Source of the DNA: Myxococcales bacterium
GTDB lineage: Bacteria; Myxococcota_A; Polyangia; Haliangiales; Haliangiaceae
DNA: 37,739 bases
Reading direction: 5' to 3'
Assembly: GCA_016794525.1 (NCBI GenBank)
Contig: JAEUJY010000091.1
Location: forward strand, 1-37,739
The notes under the pieces are model-generated. The model saw nothing but the letters and a program-made list of their open reading frames with translations. It made no database searches and was not told the DNA's origin. Below, piece by piece: positions 6,119 to 36,322 of the stretch (positions are counted from its first letter, which is position 1; every line of letters begins with the position of its first letter). A program made the position numbers and the translations under genes.

Positions 6119-7231
6119 TCACCGCGGCGTGAACGCGACCGCGGCGACCCGGGCCCGGGCGTCGGGCAGCGCGCCGACGGTGGTCCAGGCGTCGCCGTCG
6201 ACCGAGGCCAGCACCTCGGTGCCGCCGCCGACGATCAGCAGCCGCGCGCCGTCGTCGACCATGCCCGGCGCCTCGCGCGGCGCGCCCGGCAGCGGCGCGA
6301 CCGGCGCCCACGTCGCCAGGTCGCTCGAGCGCTCCATCGCGACGCCGAAGCCGCCGCCGCGCAGCACGTAGGGCCCGCGCCAACCTGCGGACGCGAAGTC
6401 CTGGCCGATCGTCAGCGCGCCGCGCGTGGTCCAGGTCGCGCCGTCGGGCGAGGTCAGCACGTCGGTCAGGTAGCCGGCCGCGTCGTGGCCGCCGAGCGCG
6501 ACCAGCGCGCCGTCGGCGCTCAGCAGGTCGAGCTCGTGGCGCGCGGTCGGCAGCTGGCCGACCTGCGTCCACGCGACGGCGTCGGTCGAGCGGTAGACCT
6601 GATCGTAGCTGCCGGCCTCGTAGCCGCCGGCGATCCACAGCGCGCGCGCGTGGACGGTCGCGCCGAGGCTGCCGGCGCGGTTCGGCAAGGCGCCGACGGC
6701 GGTCCACGCGACGCCGTCGGTCGACGCCCAGACGTTGTCCTGCGACGCGCCGCCGGCGTCGATGCCGCCGAGGTAGTAGATCCGATCGTTCCACACCAGC
6801 GCGGCGCCGCTGTCGCGCGGCGCCGGCAGGTGGCCGACCAGCGCCCACGTGACGCCGTCGTCGGAGGCCAGCACCTCGTCGAGCGCGGCGCCGCCGCGCT
6901 GCCCGCCGATCAGGAACAGCCGCGCGCCGCGGTGGGTGATCGTCGCGCTGGCCAGCGCGCCGGCGGCGTCGGCGACGGTCACGACGGTCTGGCCGACCCG
7001 GGCCGGCGCGACGAAGCCGCCGTCGACGTCGACCTCGCCGGCGCCCGCGGTCACCGCGAAGCCGTAGGGCGGGGTGCCGCCGCGCGCGGTCAGCTGCAGC
7101 GGCGACGACAGGTTGATCGTCGCACTCGGCGGATCGATCGCGAGGCCGTCGCCGCCGTCGACGACCGGGTCGTAGCCGATCCGGCCGCAGCCAGCGCCCA
7201 GCAGCGCCGCGAAGAGCAGGAGCCGGCCCAT
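6119..7231 (-). CDS. Lipoprotein with Ig-like domain and kelch-like beta-propeller repeats
   Basis: The 370-residue product starts with a lipoprotein signal (MGRLLLFAALLGAGC, lipobox LGAGC). About residues 30-100 look like a bacterial Ig-like domain (PPYGFAV, VTVADAAG). The rest consists of about five to six repeats of the form S.DG..W..VG.LP..R followed by glycine-rich strands (IYYLGGID, LWIAGGYE, LVALGGHD, LLIVGGG), typical of kelch-type propellers. It is probably an outer-membrane or surface protein; the binding partner is unknown. ATG 7231 is chosen because the signal peptide starts there; TATCCT lies 6 bases upstream (7243-7238), which suggests a leaderless transcript. Confidence 0.85.
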   Translation of the reverse strand: MGRLLLFAALLGAGCGRIGYDPVVDGGDGLAIDPPSATINLSSPLQLTARGGTPPYGFAVTAGAGEVDVDGGFVAPARVGQTVVTVADAAGALASATITHRGARLFLIGGQRGGAALDEVLASDDGVTWALVGHLPAPRDSGAALVWNDRIYYLGGIDAGGASQDNVWASTDGVAWTAVGALPNRAGSLGATVHARALWIAGGYEAGSYDQVYRSTDAVAWTQVGQLPTARHELDLLSADGALVALGGHDAAGYLTDVLTSPDGATWTTRGALTIGQDFASAGWRGPYVLRGGGFGVAMERSSDLATWAPVAPLPGAPREAPGMVDDGARLLIVGGGTEVLASVDGDAWTTVGALPDARARVAAVAFTPR

Positions 7232-7310
7232 GGCCCCAGGATACGGGCCTGGCAACGGGGAAGTCGATCGGTCCCGGGGCCGATGCAGCCCCGCTCGTGA
7301 CGTCGCCGGC

Positions 7311-7421
7311 TTCGGACGAGCACCGGTCCGCGCGCCGGGCGTCTCGCGTCCTGGTGGGAGGCTCGGCGGGGACCCGGCCCCGCCGAGGAGGTGCGGCGAC
7401 GCACCTCCTGGAACTCAGCGC
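7311..7421. repeat. Structured intergenic repeat, copy 1
   Basis: This 111-bp unit has about 50 unpaired bases beginning TTCGGACGAGCACCG, then two adjacent perfect 10-bp hairpins. The first is CTCGGCGGGG with a 6-base loop (7362-7387); the second is AGGAGGTGCG with a GCGA loop (7386-7409). It is followed by a diverged second copy with the same layout. It lies between two minus-strand genes and I see no ORF in it. Confidence 0.75.
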
Positions 7422-7431
7422 TTGTCAGTGT

Positions 7432-7545
7432 TTCGGCCGAGCACCGACCCATGCGCCAGGCGTTTCGCGTCTTGGGAGGGGGCCCCGTCGGGGCATGACC
7501 CGACGGGGGAGGGCGTGGCGACACGCCCTCCAGGAATCAGAGCGC
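7432..7545. repeat. Structured intergenic repeat, copy 2
   Basis: This second copy begins TTCGGCCGAGCACCG and keeps both hairpins with altered stems: CCCCGTCGGG with a 6-base loop (7483-7508) and GGAGGGCGTG with the same GCGA loop (7508-7531). Its last bases overlap the stop codon of the upstream lipoprotein gene (7537). The stems differ from copy 1 by paired changes, so the structure rather than the sequence is conserved. Confidence 0.75.
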
Positions 7546-9309: not shown

Positions 9310-9848
9310 GACGGCGACCTCACGCAGGTGATGTTCCACCAGTACGAGACGATCTCGCCGGGCGGGGTGACGTCGCGGTACAGGCGCGTCGTCGTGCTGG
9401 TCGGCAGCCGGTCCATCAGGTCCAGCTCGAAGACGTGGGTAGGGCCGTCGGCGATGTCGTCGGTGCACACGCCGATCAGCGAGCAGGTCGTCGTGCGCTC
9501 GGTGTCGCCGGACGGGCTGGGCCCGACCTGGCAGTCGGCGCGCACCTGGGTCGGCCCGGCCAGGCCGTAGTCGAGGTACATCCGGTAGTACAGCGTGTCG
9601 CCGGGATCGGTGTCCTCGGCGGTGATGCGCAGCTCGCCGGTGCCGACCGCGAACACGTGGGGCCCCGGCCGCACCAGCTCCTCGCCGGTGCCGTCCTTGA
9701 CCGAGCGGAACGCCGGCGGGTGGTTGACCGCCGCGTCGGCGCCGTCGGTCTGCAGCGGTGGGGGGATCACGCACCCCGTCACCACGAGCGGCGACAGGAG
9801 GGCGGCGGCGGAGGTCACGGCCACAACCCCATGCACGCAGCGCGCCAT
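9306..9848 (-). CDS. Lipoprotein of unknown function
   Basis: The 180-residue product starts MARCVHGVVAVTSAAA and has the lipobox LVVTGC, so the mature protein is lipid-anchored. The mature part contains a PPAFRSV-type start, a segment ITAEDTDPGDTLYYRMYLD resembling a single Ig/cadherin-like domain, and several Cys residues (ADCQVGPS, TCSLIGVCTD, NITCVR). ATG 9848 is preferred over the more upstream start at 9950 because the signal peptide begins there. It is first in a two-gene operon with the larger lipoprotein at 7537-9309. No known family is recognised. Confidence 0.75.
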   Translation of the reverse strand: MARCVHGVVAVTSAAALLSPLVVTGCVIPPPLQTDGADAAVNHPPAFRSVKDGTGEELVRPGPHVFAVGTGELRITAEDTDPGDTLYYRMYLDYGLAGPTQVRADCQVGPSPSGDTERTTTCSLIGVCTDDIADGPTHVFELDLMDRLPTSTTTRLYRDVTPPGEIVSYWWNITCVRSPS

Positions 9849-15409: not shown

Positions 15410-18400
15410 TCACCAGGTCTCGAGGCCGTGGCAGGCCGGGTCGCAGCGCTTGGTCGCGGCGGTCCAGGTCCCGGCCTGGCGCAACGACACCTGCACGACG
15501 CCGTCGACGTGCAGCGGCAGCCCGACGATCGTGGCCGAGCCGCTGACCACCGTGGCGTGGCACTCCTGGCAGGCGATGCCGCGCGACTTCACGTGCAGCC
15601 GGTGTTCGCCCGACATGTTGAACGTCGTCGTCGGCGTGGTCGCGTCGTGGTGGCACGACGCGCAGGTGATGACCGGGTCGGTGGTCCAGGTCGCGGCGCC
15701 GCCGTCGGTGCGGCCGTCGCCGTGGCAGTGCATCGCCGCGCAGCCGGCGGTCGCCGGCGCGTAGGTCGCGGTCGGGTTGAGCGCGTCGAAGCGCACCTCG
15801 GCGCGGCCGTCGCCGTCGATGTGGCCGGGCGACAGCGCCGACGTCGGCGTGACGTGGCAGCGGGCGCAGGTCCACGGCGCGTGGATCGCGGTGGCGTCGA
15901 GGTGCAGCGTGTGGGCGCCGACCGCGATCGTGCTGCGCGCCAGCTCGCCGCCGACGCCGGCCGGCGGCGCGCCCGACGCGTTGTCGACGCCGCCGTGGCA
16001 GAACGTGCACCGGGTCTCCCAGTCGGCGTGGCACGACGTGCACGACACCGCGCTCATGCCGCCGCGCAGATCGGCGCCGTGGCAGGTCTGGCAGGCCGCG
16101 AGGCCGCCGTCGTTGGCCGCCGCGCCGTGGGCCGCCGGCGTGGCCCAGCCGGTCGGGTGGACCGCGGTGACCTCGACGACGCCGTCGACGTGCAGCGCCG
16201 GGCCGACGAACGCGCCGGCGAGCGACACCACGGCCGGGTGGCACATGCCGCAGGCCTGCGGCACCGGCGCGCCGACCGCCGGGTGCGCGCCGCCCGGCGG
16301 CAGGCCGTGGCACGTGCCGCACGCGGCCTGGGTGCCGTCGACGATGGTCCACTGCGGCGCGTGGTTGCTGCCGCCGGGTGCCAGCGTCGCGCCGTGGCAG
16401 TAGGCGCCGGCGCAGCGCGCGCCGTCGAAGCTCGGGGTGGCGCCGTCGGCGCGCGCGGTGGCGCCGAACCGCAGCTCGGCCGGCAGCGGCGTGTCGAAGT
16501 GGCCGGCGGCGAGGACGCTGCTCGGGACCACGTGGCATTCGCCGCAGGCGATCGGCGCGCGCCAGGTCGAGGCGCGCAGGTGGCTGCGGTGCGCGCCGAC
16601 GCCGCGGGTGGTCGTGGCGAGGTTGCCGCCGACGTCGCGGGGCGGCGACGGATCGCCCGCGCCGCCGTGGCACGAGTCGCAGGTGAGGCTGCGGACCTCG
16701 ACGACGCCGTCGACGTGCAGGGCGGCGTTGGCGAAGCTGCCGTCGGGAGCGATCACCGCGTCGTGGCAGGCGCTGCACGCGGCCGGGATCGCGCCGGTGA
16801 CCGGCGGGTGGCCGCCGCCGGGTGGCAGGCCGTGGCACGCGCCGCACGCGGCCTGGGTGCCGTCGACGCGGGTCCACGTCGGCGCCGTGGTCGTGCCGCC
16901 CGGGCGCAGCGTCGCGCCGTGGCAGTAGACGCCGGCGCAGGTCGCGCCGCCGAAGCTGGGCGTCGCGCCGTCGGCGCGGGCCCGCGGGCCAAAGGTCAGC
17001 TCGGCGGGGAGCGCGGTGTCGCGGTGGCCGGGGCTGTCGACCGACGTCGGCACCAGGTGGCAGTCGGTGCACGCGATCGGCGCGCGCCACGTCGACGCGC
17101 GCAGGTGGCTGCGGTGGGCGCCGACGCCGCGGGCGGTGGTCGCGAGGTTGCCGGCGAGGTCGCGGGGCGGCGCGGGATCGCCGGCGCCGCCGTGGCACCC
17201 GTCGCACGCCGCGGCGGTGACCTCGACGACGCCGTCGATGTGCAGCGCGGCGTTGGCGAAGGTGCCGCCCGGGGCGATCACCGCGCCGTGGCACGGCGCG
17301 CACGACATCGGCGGCGCGCCGGACACGCTCGGGTGCGGCGCGCCCGGCGGCAGGCCGTGGCAGGTGCCGCACGCGTCCTGGCTGCCGTCGACCTGCGTCC
17401 ACGTCGGCGTGGTGTCGGCGCCGCCGGGCGCCAGCGTCGCGCCGTGGCAGTACGCGCCCTGGCAGGTCACGCCGTCGAAGACCGGCGCCGCGCCGTCGGC
17501 GGTCGCCAGCGGCCCGAACGTCAGCTCGGCCGGGCGCGGCGAGTCGAGGTGGCCGACCGCGGTCGGCGTCGCCGGCACGCGGTGGCACTCCTCGCACGCG
17601 ATCGGTGCGTGCCACGGCGACGGCGCCAGGTGCGCCTGGTGCGCGCCGACCGCGCGCGCGGTGGTCGCGGTCTCGCCGAGCAGACCGCGCGGCGGCGCCG
17701 GGCTCGCGCTCGAGCCGTGGCACGCGTCGCAGCTGGTGGCGACGACCTCGACGATGCCGTCGAGGTGCAGCGTCGGATCGGCGAAGCTGCCGTCGGCGGC
17801 GATCACCGCGCCGTGGCACGCGCTGCACGCCGCCGGCACCGCGCCGGTGACGGTCGGGTGGCTGCCGCCCGGCGGCAGGCCGTGGCAGGTGCCGCACGCG
17901 GCCTGGGTGCCGTCGACCCGGGTCCAGGTCGGCGTCGTGTCGCTGCCGCCGCCGAGCGTGGCGCCGTGGCAGTAAGCGCCGGCGCAGGTCACGCCGTCGA
18001 AGCTCGGCGTCGCGCCGGCCGCAGTCGCCAGCGGCCCGAACGTCAGCTCCGCGGGCAGCGCGGTGTCGGCGTGGCCGACCGCGCCGACGCTGGCAGGCAC
18101 GGCGTGGCACTCGGCGCACGCGACCGGCGCGTGCCAGGTCGCCGCCCGCAGGTGGCTGCGGTGCGCGCCCACGCCGCGGGCGGTGGTCGAGACCTGGCCG
18201 CTGAGGCTGGTCGGCGGCGACGGATCGCCAGCCGAGCCGTGGCACGAGTCGCACGCCAGCTCGCGCAGCTCGACGACGCCGTCGATGTGGTTGGTCGCGT
18301 CGAGGAACGGCGTGCGCAGGTCGACCGACGGGTGACAGGGGCTGCAGAAGGTCGCCGCCGGGTGCGGCGGGCCGGGCGGCAGGCCGTGGCAGGTGCCGCA

Positions 18401-18949
18401 CGCGGCCTGGCCGGGCTGGCCCGAGGCCCACCGCGGCGCCGGGTTGGTGCCGCCGGCCAGGCTGGCGCCGTGGCAGTAGGTCGTGCACTGCACGCCGTCG
18501 AAGGCCGGGGTGACGCCGCCGGCGCTGGCCAGCGGGCTCCACGTCAGCTCGGCCGGCAACGCGCTGTCGACGTGGCCGAGCGAGTCGCGGGTCGGCGGCA
18601 CCACGTGGCAGTCGCCGCACGCCAGGTCGCGGTGCCAGAAGGCGCCGGTGGTCAGGTGGGCGCGGTGGGCGCCGACGCCGCGCAGGAGCGGGCTCACGCC
18701 GCCGGTGGTGTCGCGCGGCGGCGCCGCCGTGGTGGCGTCGCCGTGGCAGGTCTCGCAGGCCGGCTCGATCGCGGCGTCGACGTCGGCGTCGATGTCGGCG
18801 TCGACGTCGGCGTCGACCGCGACCGCCGCGTCGGTGGCGGCGTCGAGGTCGGGCGCGTCGACCGCGGCGTCCGGGGGGAGCGCTGCGCCGCCGCCACAGG
18901 CGGCGACCGCGAGCGTGACGACCAGCAGCGCGCGACGGAGCAGGCGCAT
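15410..18949 (-). CDS. Multihaem c-type cytochrome lipoprotein with tandem 175-residue repeats
   Basis: The 1179-residue product has a lipoprotein signal (MRLLRRALLVVTLAVAAC, lipid Cys18) and a DA/DV repeat linker to about residue 61. After that, candidate haem-attachment sites occur about every 34 residues. I count 26 CxxCH, 5 CxxxxCH (such as CAGAYCH) and 2 CxxxCH (CTTYCH, CDPACH), 33 in all. The alternation of C4xCH and CxxCH is the pattern of the Geobacter GSu_C4xC__C2xCH family. Five tandem repeats of about 168-175 residues each carry five sites, and a divergent C-terminal part carries eight. It is probably outer-membrane or extracellular and moves electrons; whether the atypical motifs bind haem is uncertain. 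No cytochrome c maturation gene is in the window. Confidence 0.9.
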   Translation of the reverse strand: MRLLRRALLVVTLAVAACGGGAALPPDAAVDAPDLDAATDAAVAVDADVDADIDADVDAAIEPACETCHGDATTAAPPRDTTGGVSPLLRGVGAHRAHLTTGAFWHRDLACGDCHVVPPTRDSLGHVDSALPAELTWSPLASAGGVTPAFDGVQCTTYCHGASLAGGTNPAPRWASGQPGQAACGTCHGLPPGPPHPAATFCSPCHPSVDLRTPFLDATNHIDGVVELRELACDSCHGSAGDPSPPTSLSGQVSTTARGVGAHRSHLRAATWHAPVACAECHAVPASVGAVGHADTALPAELTFGPLATAAGATPSFDGVTCAGAYCHGATLGGGSDTTPTWTRVDGTQAACGTCHGLPPGGSHPTVTGAVPAACSACHGAVIAADGSFADPTLHLDGIVEVVATSCDACHGSSASPAPPRGLLGETATTARAVGAHQAHLAPSPWHAPIACEECHRVPATPTAVGHLDSPRPAELTFGPLATADGAAPVFDGVTCQGAYCHGATLAPGGADTTPTWTQVDGSQDACGTCHGLPPGAPHPSVSGAPPMSCAPCHGAVIAPGGTFANAALHIDGVVEVTAAACDGCHGGAGDPAPPRDLAGNLATTARGVGAHRSHLRASTWRAPIACTDCHLVPTSVDSPGHRDTALPAELTFGPRARADGATPSFGGATCAGVYCHGATLRPGGTTTAPTWTRVDGTQAACGACHGLPPGGGHPPVTGAIPAACSACHDAVIAPDGSFANAALHVDGVVEVRSLTCDSCHGGAGDPSPPRDVGGNLATTTRGVGAHRSHLRASTWRAPIACGECHVVPSSVLAAGHFDTPLPAELRFGATARADGATPSFDGARCAGAYCHGATLAPGGSNHAPQWTIVDGTQAACGTCHGLPPGGAHPAVGAPVPQACGMCHPAVVSLAGAFVGPALHVDGVVEVTAVHPTGWATPAAHGAAANDGGLAACQTCHGADLRGGMSAVSCTSCHADWETRCTFCHGGVDNASGAPPAGVGGELARSTIAVGAHTLHLDATAIHAPWTCARCHVTPTSALSPGHIDGDGRAEVRFDALNPTATYAPATAGCAAMHCHGDGRTDGGAATWTTDPVITCASCHHDATTPTTTFNMSGEHRLHVKSRGIACQECHATVVSGSATIVGLPLHVDGVVQVSLRQAGTWTAATKRCDPACHGLETW
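16160..18679 (-). repeat. Five tandem ~525-bp coding repeats in the cytochrome gene
   Basis: The segment coding for the G/A-V-G-A-H motif that opens each unit recurs at 18679, 18175, 17653, 17128 and 16603, giving periods of 504, 522, 525 and 525 bp. The fourth and fifth units are the most alike, which suggests recent duplication or gene conversion. Each unit carries one C4xCH and four CxxCH sites. Confidence 0.85.
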
Positions 18950-19151
18950 GCCGCGAGCGCGTGCAACCAGGGCGCCGACGGCGCGGGTGAGTCAGGATGC
19001 CGCGCCTGCGCCCGCGCTGGCGCCGCCGTTCGCGCACGCTTTGCGGCGGCGGCGCGCGCCGCCGCGGTCCCTCGCAGAAACCGCGCGGCCGGGCGCGGCC
19101 CGGCGTGCCAGCGCGGCGCGCCGGCTGTGCAACGATCGGACAGCGTCGTCG
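18950..19151. other. Intergenic gap between UbiB-like and cytochrome genes
   Basis: This 202-base gap separates two minus-strand genes. It is extremely GC-rich, with short self-complementary tracts such as GGCGGCGGCGCGCGCCGCC around 19043. I see no convincing gene or consensus promoter in it. Confidence 0.4.
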
Positions 19152-21450: not shown

Positions 21451-21523
<73 letters not shown>

Positions 21524-21570
21524 TAGGAATGACGGAGGGTTAGGCGGGTGGCGGGGCAGGGTCGGGCAGG

Positions 21571-21594: not shown

Positions 21595-22812
21595 TCAGTT
21601 GCTCCCCATCGGGGCGGGCACGGCCATCGCCACCAGCGCCGAGAGGCCGGCAGCGATCTCGTGGTCGCGGGCGGTGCTGTAGTGCCGTTGCATCGCTTCG
21701 GTGGCGTGCCCCGAGATCGCCCGCGTGATCACGCCCTCGACCCGCGCCTCGCGCGCCATGTCCTGAAACGTCCGGCGCATCGCGCGCGGCGTCAGCTTGT
21801 AGGGTAGCCCCATCGCCGCCGCGCACTTCGCGAAGGGCTTATCGAACGCCTCGACCGGCAGGAACGCGCCCGTCGTGCTGGGGAACAACAGGTCCGACGC
21901 CGCGGCCTTCCCCTTCAACCCCGCGACGTGGTCGCGCAGGATCGCCACCAGCTCGGCCGGCATCTGGATCCGCTGGTCGCGGCCGGTCTTCGTCGCCGGC
22001 ATCACCTCGGTGCCCCGCGTGTGCGACTGCCTGACGAGCAACAGACCATCGTCCCACTTCACGTCCGACGCCGGGCCGCGGCGTCGGAGCGGGCGCAGCG
22101 ACGACGGGCGAAGGCCGGTCACGAACCCGAGCACCGTGGGCGCGTACATCCTCGGGAACATCTCGCGCATGGTGGCCAGGAACCGCGGCACGTCGGCGGG
22201 CGCGAGCGAGTTCGGCGCTTCGTCGGTGTAGGTCCGATGGCCGCGGGTGTCGAACGGCCGCACCCGCCGCATCGGATCCTTCAGGTCGTACTCGTCGGCC
22301 GCCGCCGCGGTGATGACCCGGAGCACCGACAGGATCGTGTTGCCGGTGGTGGGGCTGGCGTTGCCGGCGCGGACCTTCGCGGCGAACCGGGCCTTCCATG
22401 CCTCGACGTCGGCCGCGGTCAGGTGATCGATGTAGATCGACCCGAACGCGGGATCGAGGTGGGCGCGGAGGATCACCATCCATTTCTCGCGACCGGACGC
22501 CGACGCGATCCGGCCATCGGTGATCTTGCGCGCCATGATCGTGGCCGCGTACTCGGTGAACCGCGGCAACGCCTCCGCATCGCGCGCGCCTCCCTTCGCG
22601 CGCTCGAGCTCGGCGGCCAGAGCGGCGCTCGCCTCGCGCGCGCTCTTGGCATCGGGCAGGGCGCGGCGCACCTCGACCATGCGGCCGGTGCGCGGGTCGA
22701 CGACACGCCCGCGGATGCGGTAGCCGCCGGCCTTGCGCTTGTAGACGCCGGGCGCCACGGGCTTGGGATCGATCTCGTCGTGCCAGCGTGACACCCACCG
22801 GCCGGCGCTCAC
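21595..22812 (-). CDS. int: Tyrosine recombinase integrase
   Basis: The 405-residue integrase has an N-terminal arm-binding-type segment (VYKRKAGGYRIRGRVVDPRT), a SAM-like core-binding domain (about 80-185) and a catalytic domain. The catalytic residues are Arg235 (TGLRPSSL), Lys275 (ATKTGRDQR), Arg346 in box II (PRAMRRTF), His369 (SGHA) and the nucleophile Tyr378 (RHYST). The box II His is replaced by Arg343, as in some phage integrases. It catalyses integration at, and excision from, the tRNA-Val 3' end. GTG 22812 overlaps the upstream gene's stop (GTGA). It is the last gene of a three-gene operon that starts behind the palindromic operator at 24125-24141. Confidence 0.93.
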   Translation of the reverse strand: MSAGRWVSRWHDEIDPKPVAPGVYKRKAGGYRIRGRVVDPRTGRMVEVRRALPDAKSAREASAALAAELERAKGGARDAEALPRFTEYAATIMARKITDGRIASASGREKWMVILRAHLDPAFGSIYIDHLTAADVEAWKARFAAKVRAGNASPTTGNTILSVLRVITAAAADEYDLKDPMRRVRPFDTRGHRTYTDEAPNSLAPADVPRFLATMREMFPRMYAPTVLGFVTGLRPSSLRPLRRRGPASDVKWDDGLLLVRQSHTRGTEVMPATKTGRDQRIQMPAELVAILRDHVAGLKGKAAASDLLFPSTTGAFLPVEAFDKPFAKCAAAMGLPYKLTPRAMRRTFQDMAREARVEGVITRAISGHATEAMQRHYSTARDHEIAAGLSALVAMAVPAPMGSN

Positions 22813-36218: not shown

Positions 36219-36263
36219 CCTTGACACGGTAGGGGTCCGCGGTTCAATCCCGCGCACACCAAC
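36219..36263 (+). repeat. Attachment site, distal copy (45 bp of tRNA-Val 3' half)
   Basis: It is identical to 21479-21523. The 5' half of the tRNA is absent here, so it is not a second tRNA. Host sequence resumes at 36264; 36264-36322 holds no gene. Confidence 0.93.
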
Positions 36264-36322
36264 GAGACGACAGGGCGGGGGAGGCGGCGGACACGGCGAG
36301 GCGCGACGCGCCGCGGCCGTGG

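Follow-up and report, generated by a model that had tools for sequence, protein, structure and literature searches.

A REP-like family of dispersed hairpin repeats located next to stop codons in a genus of the Kofleriaceae

The window analyzed here is the whole 37,739 nt stretch of contig JAEUJY010000091.1 from a Myxococcales bacterium. Its + strand has two copies of a repeat in tandem at positions 7285–7542, in which base pairing is maintained through compensated changes. Copy 1 (positions 7285–7420, +) matches covariance model R1 with 103 bits; its conserved lead begins at position 7311 and the CTCAG at its 5' end is decayed. Copy 2 (positions 7405–7542, +) matches the same model with 142 bits and has its lead from position 7432. 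The two are joined at positions 7416–7420 (+), where a CTCAG is common to copy 2 and the end of copy 1. Copy 2 adjoins a minus-strand gene, a 745 aa ORF from position 9774, whose TGA stop codon is at positions 7537–7539 (-), 5 nt off the second hairpin of the repeat. Copy 1 is the farther of the two from this gene. The copy pair occupies most of the gap up to the next minus-strand gene, which encodes a kelch-repeat protein and has its start near position 7231.

Each copy displays two hairpins in its 3' part, termed C and D. In copy 1, hairpin C (positions 7362–7387, +) is CTCGGCGGGG-ACCCGG-CCCCGCCGAG and hairpin D (positions 7386–7409, +) is AGGAGGTGCG-GCGA-CGCACCTCCT, the first two bases of which overlap hairpin C. 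In copy 2, hairpin C (positions 7483–7508, +) is CCCCGTCGGG-GCATGA-CCCGACGGGG and hairpin D (positions 7508–7531, +) is GGAGGGCGTG-GCGA-CACGCCCTCC. Column covariation is present in hairpins C and D of both copies. A comparison of the two copies shows that 4 of the 10 pairs in hairpin C are unlike, all of them compensated, with both stems perfect; in hairpin D 5 of the 10 pairs are unlike and 5/5 are compensated. An earlier note on this DNA, made from the sequence alone, had described two structured tandem copies with GCGA loops and with these five compensated pairs in the second hairpin, and they are present where it placed them. The note had also described the hairpins of each copy as perfect 10 bp stems that are adjacent. 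The stems are indeed perfect, but this description goes slightly too far: as 10 bp stems C and D overlap by 2 nt in copy 1 and by 1 nt in copy 2, and both hairpins therefore cannot form fully at the same time. When hairpin D is shortened to 8–9 bp there is no overlap with hairpin C. The unit length of about 112 bp given for the two copies was too short: the left end of the unit is a CTCAG approximately 27 bp beyond the one described, and two more hairpins, both weaker, belong to it. RNA folding of the + strand yields z-scores of -2.9 and -3.3 for the two copies. Perfect stems of 10 bp or more are found at 8 positions in the window, compared with 0–5 in 20 simple dinucleotide-block shuffles.

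Two other features of the window are of separate interest. A tRNA gene is located at positions 21451–21522, and its 3' part is repeated (69 nt, 86% identity) 14.7 kb away (positions 21451–21547 and 36219–36287). A phage-type integrase gene (positions 21595–22782, -) is beside the tRNA gene and many short minus-strand genes are enclosed; this arrangement suggests integration of an element at the tRNA gene. In addition, positions 15410–18952 (-) represent a gene for 1180 aa with about five repeats of 525 bp, which matches multihaem cytochrome c families.

The full repeat unit, as seen in an alignment of the best copies, is approximately 135 bp and consists of CTCAG, hairpins A and B, a TCTCGCGTMYYGG core, hairpins C and D, a short tail and TCAG. 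A TCTCGCGT core precedes hairpin C in most copies, with several different leads to its left. Sorting of the copies by lead with fuzzy patterns gives classes that overlap, and for this reason no subfamily counts are given. A similarity search of the genome that contains the window finds the repeat in 42–43 places. The earlier note had proposed a search for further copies in this genome and its relatives, together with a covariance model, and had set an absence of such copies against its own reading; model R1 finds at least 148 matches in this 9.8 Mb genome, and the true total may be higher. Relatives of the full unit that have other leads are included among these ~150 copies.

An alignment of 17 copies reveals that the four-hairpin structure has 93.7% of cells paired, as opposed to 37–54% when the partner is slid by 1–3 columns. 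Double-sided changes are present in 11 of the 31 pairs, none of them outside hairpins C and D: hairpin C has them in 6/10 pairs, hairpin D in 5/9 pairs, and hairpins A and B in none. Hairpins A and B are thus weakly supported. Hairpins C and D are strong and covarying, and their pairing outlasts changes in sequence. The copies of this genome have 42 different hairpin D sequences, nearly all of which are fully paired. With these and the 11 double-sided changes, the selection on structure claimed in the earlier note is upheld.

The position of the repeat relative to genes is highly regular. The reading frame beside each copy was assigned by codon preference, with a score for which long ORFs from this DNA served as the training set. 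On the hairpin D side, a minus-strand gene is faced by 92 of 103 copies in this genome, and in 80 of the 103 (about 78%) the stem base of hairpin D has an opposite-strand stop codon at a distance of -2 to +12 nt. The share expected for randomly placed and oriented intergenic points is 4.2%. The neighboring genes on the far side are evenly divided (53 plus and 51 minus), which shows that docking is by one end of the element only. In a congener, the Kofleriaceae MAG G006, 12 of 21 array-end copies that face a minus-strand frame dock likewise, and several others score as noncoding. Two copies in one locus (L100) adjoin tRNA genes, for tRNA-Asn and tRNA-Gly, at their 3' ends, which indicates that the element docks to gene ends and not to translation as such. 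The docked stop codons are TGA (69), TAG (10) and TAA (2), in proportions similar to those of other genes. The context of the stop differs from that of other genes in that C before it and a purine after it are enriched (p = 4e-6 and 9e-10). Ten TAG and two TAA stops are docked without a CTGA tail; a pure CTGA target rule therefore does not fit every copy. The arm of hairpin D closest to the stop has, on the gene strand, a Shine-Dalgarno-like GGAGG/GGGAG run in 50 of 81 docked copies, e.g., at window positions 7531–7520 (-).

Strong hairpins right behind stop codons, in tandem and in convergent settings and at tRNA ends too, would fit a transcription terminator of the intrinsic type, or one similar to it, that has spread from gene to gene. 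This explanation is improbable. A scan of both strands here for intrinsic terminators shows no T-run and no terminator-like site, and copies separate the genes of the co-directional pairs gapA-pgk and etfB-etfA, in which the second gene would be silent if termination were complete.

In this genome 82 copies have GCGA as the loop of hairpin D, 28 have TCGA and 1 has ACGA; in G006 the loop is GTGA or GCGA. The earlier note had read the loop as a GNRA tetraloop if the + strand is transcribed. That fits most copies, which have GCGA or GTGA, but it does not fit the 28 with TCGA, and the GNRA-bearing + strand is antisense to the gene that the element abuts. The product under selection could nevertheless be a structured + strand RNA, antisense to the abutting gene, and the GNRA loops in both genomes and the folding z-scores near -3 in both copies are consistent with this. 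Such an RNA is quite unlikely: TCGA is not a GNRA loop, the docking at stop codons indicates the opposite strand, and the conserved loop equally fits the recognition of folded single-stranded DNA. In addition, a promoter scan here finds no promoter-like site and the Rfam 15 family models give no match. The counts of G.T versus A.C pairs (11 v 7, and 2 v 1) represent too few events to tell the strand and are uninformative.

Comparison with congeners provides evidence on how the copies arose. The docked genes include those which, from their sequences, are taken to be gapA, typA, citrate synthase, etfA, etfB, pilB and rpoN, and the C-termini of the docked genes appear complete. In congeners, gapA, etfA, etfB and rpoN end at the identical codon and are followed by ordinary DNA without the element; citrate synthase ends within four codons of its end in this genome, also with no element after it. 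A further site is seen when L081 is compared with L197, where the gap in G006 is approximately 100 bp. The element-free gene ends show that the copies were inserted next to genes whose ends were intact, and these orthologous sites together with near-identical copies at unrelated loci indicate dispersal, beyond inheritance in place. The typA stop is without the element in two of three congeners, and in G006 a differently sequenced member is at the same place, such that some docking sites may be re-used or old. The unlike members that follow the typA stop (L228 in this genome and L243 in G006) could be due to repeated insertion or to replacement of the hairpin set. Exact junctions and target duplications were sought in the congener comparison and none are readable, the noncoding DNA being too diverged.

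In a set of 35 genomes of the order, many matches are seen in this species and G006 only; two further genomes have one match each (at 1e-5). At least 87 copies are present in G006, which also has tandem arrays, and five other congeners have one copy among all five. A pattern scan of named genomes finds matches in JAGPCY01, a Kofleriaceae MAG and evidently the same genome as G006, and in one contig of a Myxococcales MAG. A search of phage and plasmid collections gives no match. The ~150-copy repeat is a new sequence family in a Kofleriaceae genus, and it is REP-like in a working sense.

A linked transposase was sought next to the repeats in this genome and the congeners and none was found. This genome has 17 Y1_Tnp genes, and at C143 and C47 a Y1 gene has the left half of the repeat on one side and the right half on the other. 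The short repeat could thus be an internal-deletion derivative (a MITE or REPIN) of a resident Y1 transposon, with the repeat halves as its ends, and this explanation was favored at first. However, the Y1 elements are bounded by ends of their own, CTGATCATTCATCACATCTCCACGGC and the inverse sequence, they join the repeat at several differing points, and the one at C143 has GTCGCGGGGG on both sides, which together indicate that they are insertions into repeats. There is also no co-occurrence: the protein of these Y1 elements is not found in G006 at 1e-5 despite at least 86 repeats there, and five congeners have this protein with almost no repeats. No intact transposon bounded by CTCAG with hairpins A/B and by hairpins C/D, and free of Y1-type inverted ends, was found. 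The deletion-derivative explanation was dropped on the own ends, the varied join points and the lack of co-occurrence, and is now regarded as very unlikely.

The Y1 elements themselves merit description. The one at C143 (L054/L042, about 54.8–56.5 kb of G000:C143) is in a hairpin repeat and is flanked by the 10 bp direct repeat GTCGCGGGGG, which was seen once. L028, L034, L056, L062, L128 and L136 also have Y1 elements with inverted ends of approximately 26 bp (CTGATCATTCATCACATCTCCACGGC) inserted into hairpin repeats. Such elements resemble the 'TIRtrons' described in PMC3733652. A second RAYT-like family of about 327 aa, with a weak match to NF047646, has many copies in the congener (L265–L272, G006) and diverged or broken copies in this genome; it was rejected as the mobilizer because no repeats are beside its genes.

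The most satisfactory explanation, considered probable as a whole with its proposed movement and RNA role, is that the repeat represents a new REP-like, non-autonomous dispersed family of a Kofleriaceae genus. The + strand would move as folded single-stranded DNA, acted on in trans by a tyrosine (HUH, RAYT-like) transposase that may have been lost or may not be linked. Insertion would have a preference for CTGA on the gene strand. With TCAG at both ends of the unit, insertion at a TGA would rebuild the stop codon and so would be tolerated. The element would be transcribed with the gene and its double hairpin would be in the 3'UTR just past the stop, where, by analogy with E. coli REPs, it may shield the mRNA from 3' exonucleases and/or hold terminating ribosomes. 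A target preference combined with purifying selection may account for a large part of the docking; it leaves the TAG and TAA copies without a CTGA tail unexplained.

That docking reflects tolerance alone, i.e., random intergenic insertion after which selection leaves the gene-end sites, fits with gene 3' ends being among the least harmful intergenic sites and with the preference of REPs elsewhere for such sites, but is very doubtful given that 78% of copies dock within 14 nt versus 4% expected, that a single end and a single orientation of the element are involved, that docking is close even where the congener gap is long (rpoN, typA), and that the degree of nearness and the C/purine context are left unexplained. 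Within the reading of a REP-like mobile family, a more specific proposal is that of a self-neutralizing 'safe harbour' element, in which the CTGA preference and the TCAG ends rebuild the stop and the post-stop double hairpin acts on termination or decay. This is put forward tentatively, as a possibility with the greater weight against it.

The general properties of REPs are all present, namely many dispersed copies, palindromes with pairing kept, and extragenic positions near ORF 3' ends. The suggestion in the earlier note of a mobile REP-like family is in agreement with the ~150 dispersed copies, their presence or absence at orthologous genes and their extragenic sites at gene 3' ends. Specific classes were also compared. 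GTAG directly 5' of the palindrome is absent from the consensus; GTAG is found in the tail, 3' of hairpin D, in about ten copies of one subfamily. A RAYT gene with the repeat on either side, a trait of GTAG REPs and REPtrons, is not found, and the Y1 genes sit inside repeats. A CGTC tag adjoining a stem of 8–9 bp with a loop of 4–5 nt is not found; CGTM is present in the core, 13–17 nt from stem C. REPINs are made up of two inverted REPs of one sequence, and a layout of one REP in two inverted copies is not seen here, where hairpins C and D are unlike and in direct succession. On the tests made, the element is outside the GTAG/RAYT class.

REP-like repeats are known chiefly from gamma- and alpha-proteobacteria. 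The gene-end habit of REPs is now seen in a myxobacterial family, with docking that is much tighter and one-sided. The element-free gene ends of congeners offer a natural with/without comparison for the effect of a post-stop hairpin on expression and for site choice.

REPs in general sit near ORF 3' ends, and the termini of GTAG REPs often provide a stop codon (PMC3733652). The new element resembles the GTAG REPs and BIMEs with their RAYT (TnpA-REP) in being a high-copy extragenic palindrome with compensated stems, near ORF 3' ends and with ends able to supply a stop (PMC3733652). It differs from GTAG REPs in its two dissimilar successive hairpins, long lead and one-sided docking, and in having neither a 5' GTAG nor a linked RAYT. 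With CGTC REPs it has in common that no transposase is linked (PMC3733652), that CGTM is in the core, and that hairpin D resembles their 8–9 bp stems with 4 nt loops. Unlike in CGTC REPs, most of which occur as head-to-head dimers carrying CCA tails, the CGTM of the new element is not beside a stem. REPINs (PMC3116915) are similar as miniature mobile units of approximately 100 bp with paired hairpins. Integron attC sites also come after stop codons, whereas copies of the new element are dispersed and not in cassette arrays. The E. coli REPs are alike in having a hairpin right behind the stop, according to work cited in PMC12306157; the same text cites a reduction of translation only when the REP is <16 nt from the stop, by reported ribosome stalling. 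The stop-proximal share, however, is about 11% for E. coli REPs (446/4,072 within 15 nt, a count cited in PMC12306157) versus ~78% for the new element.
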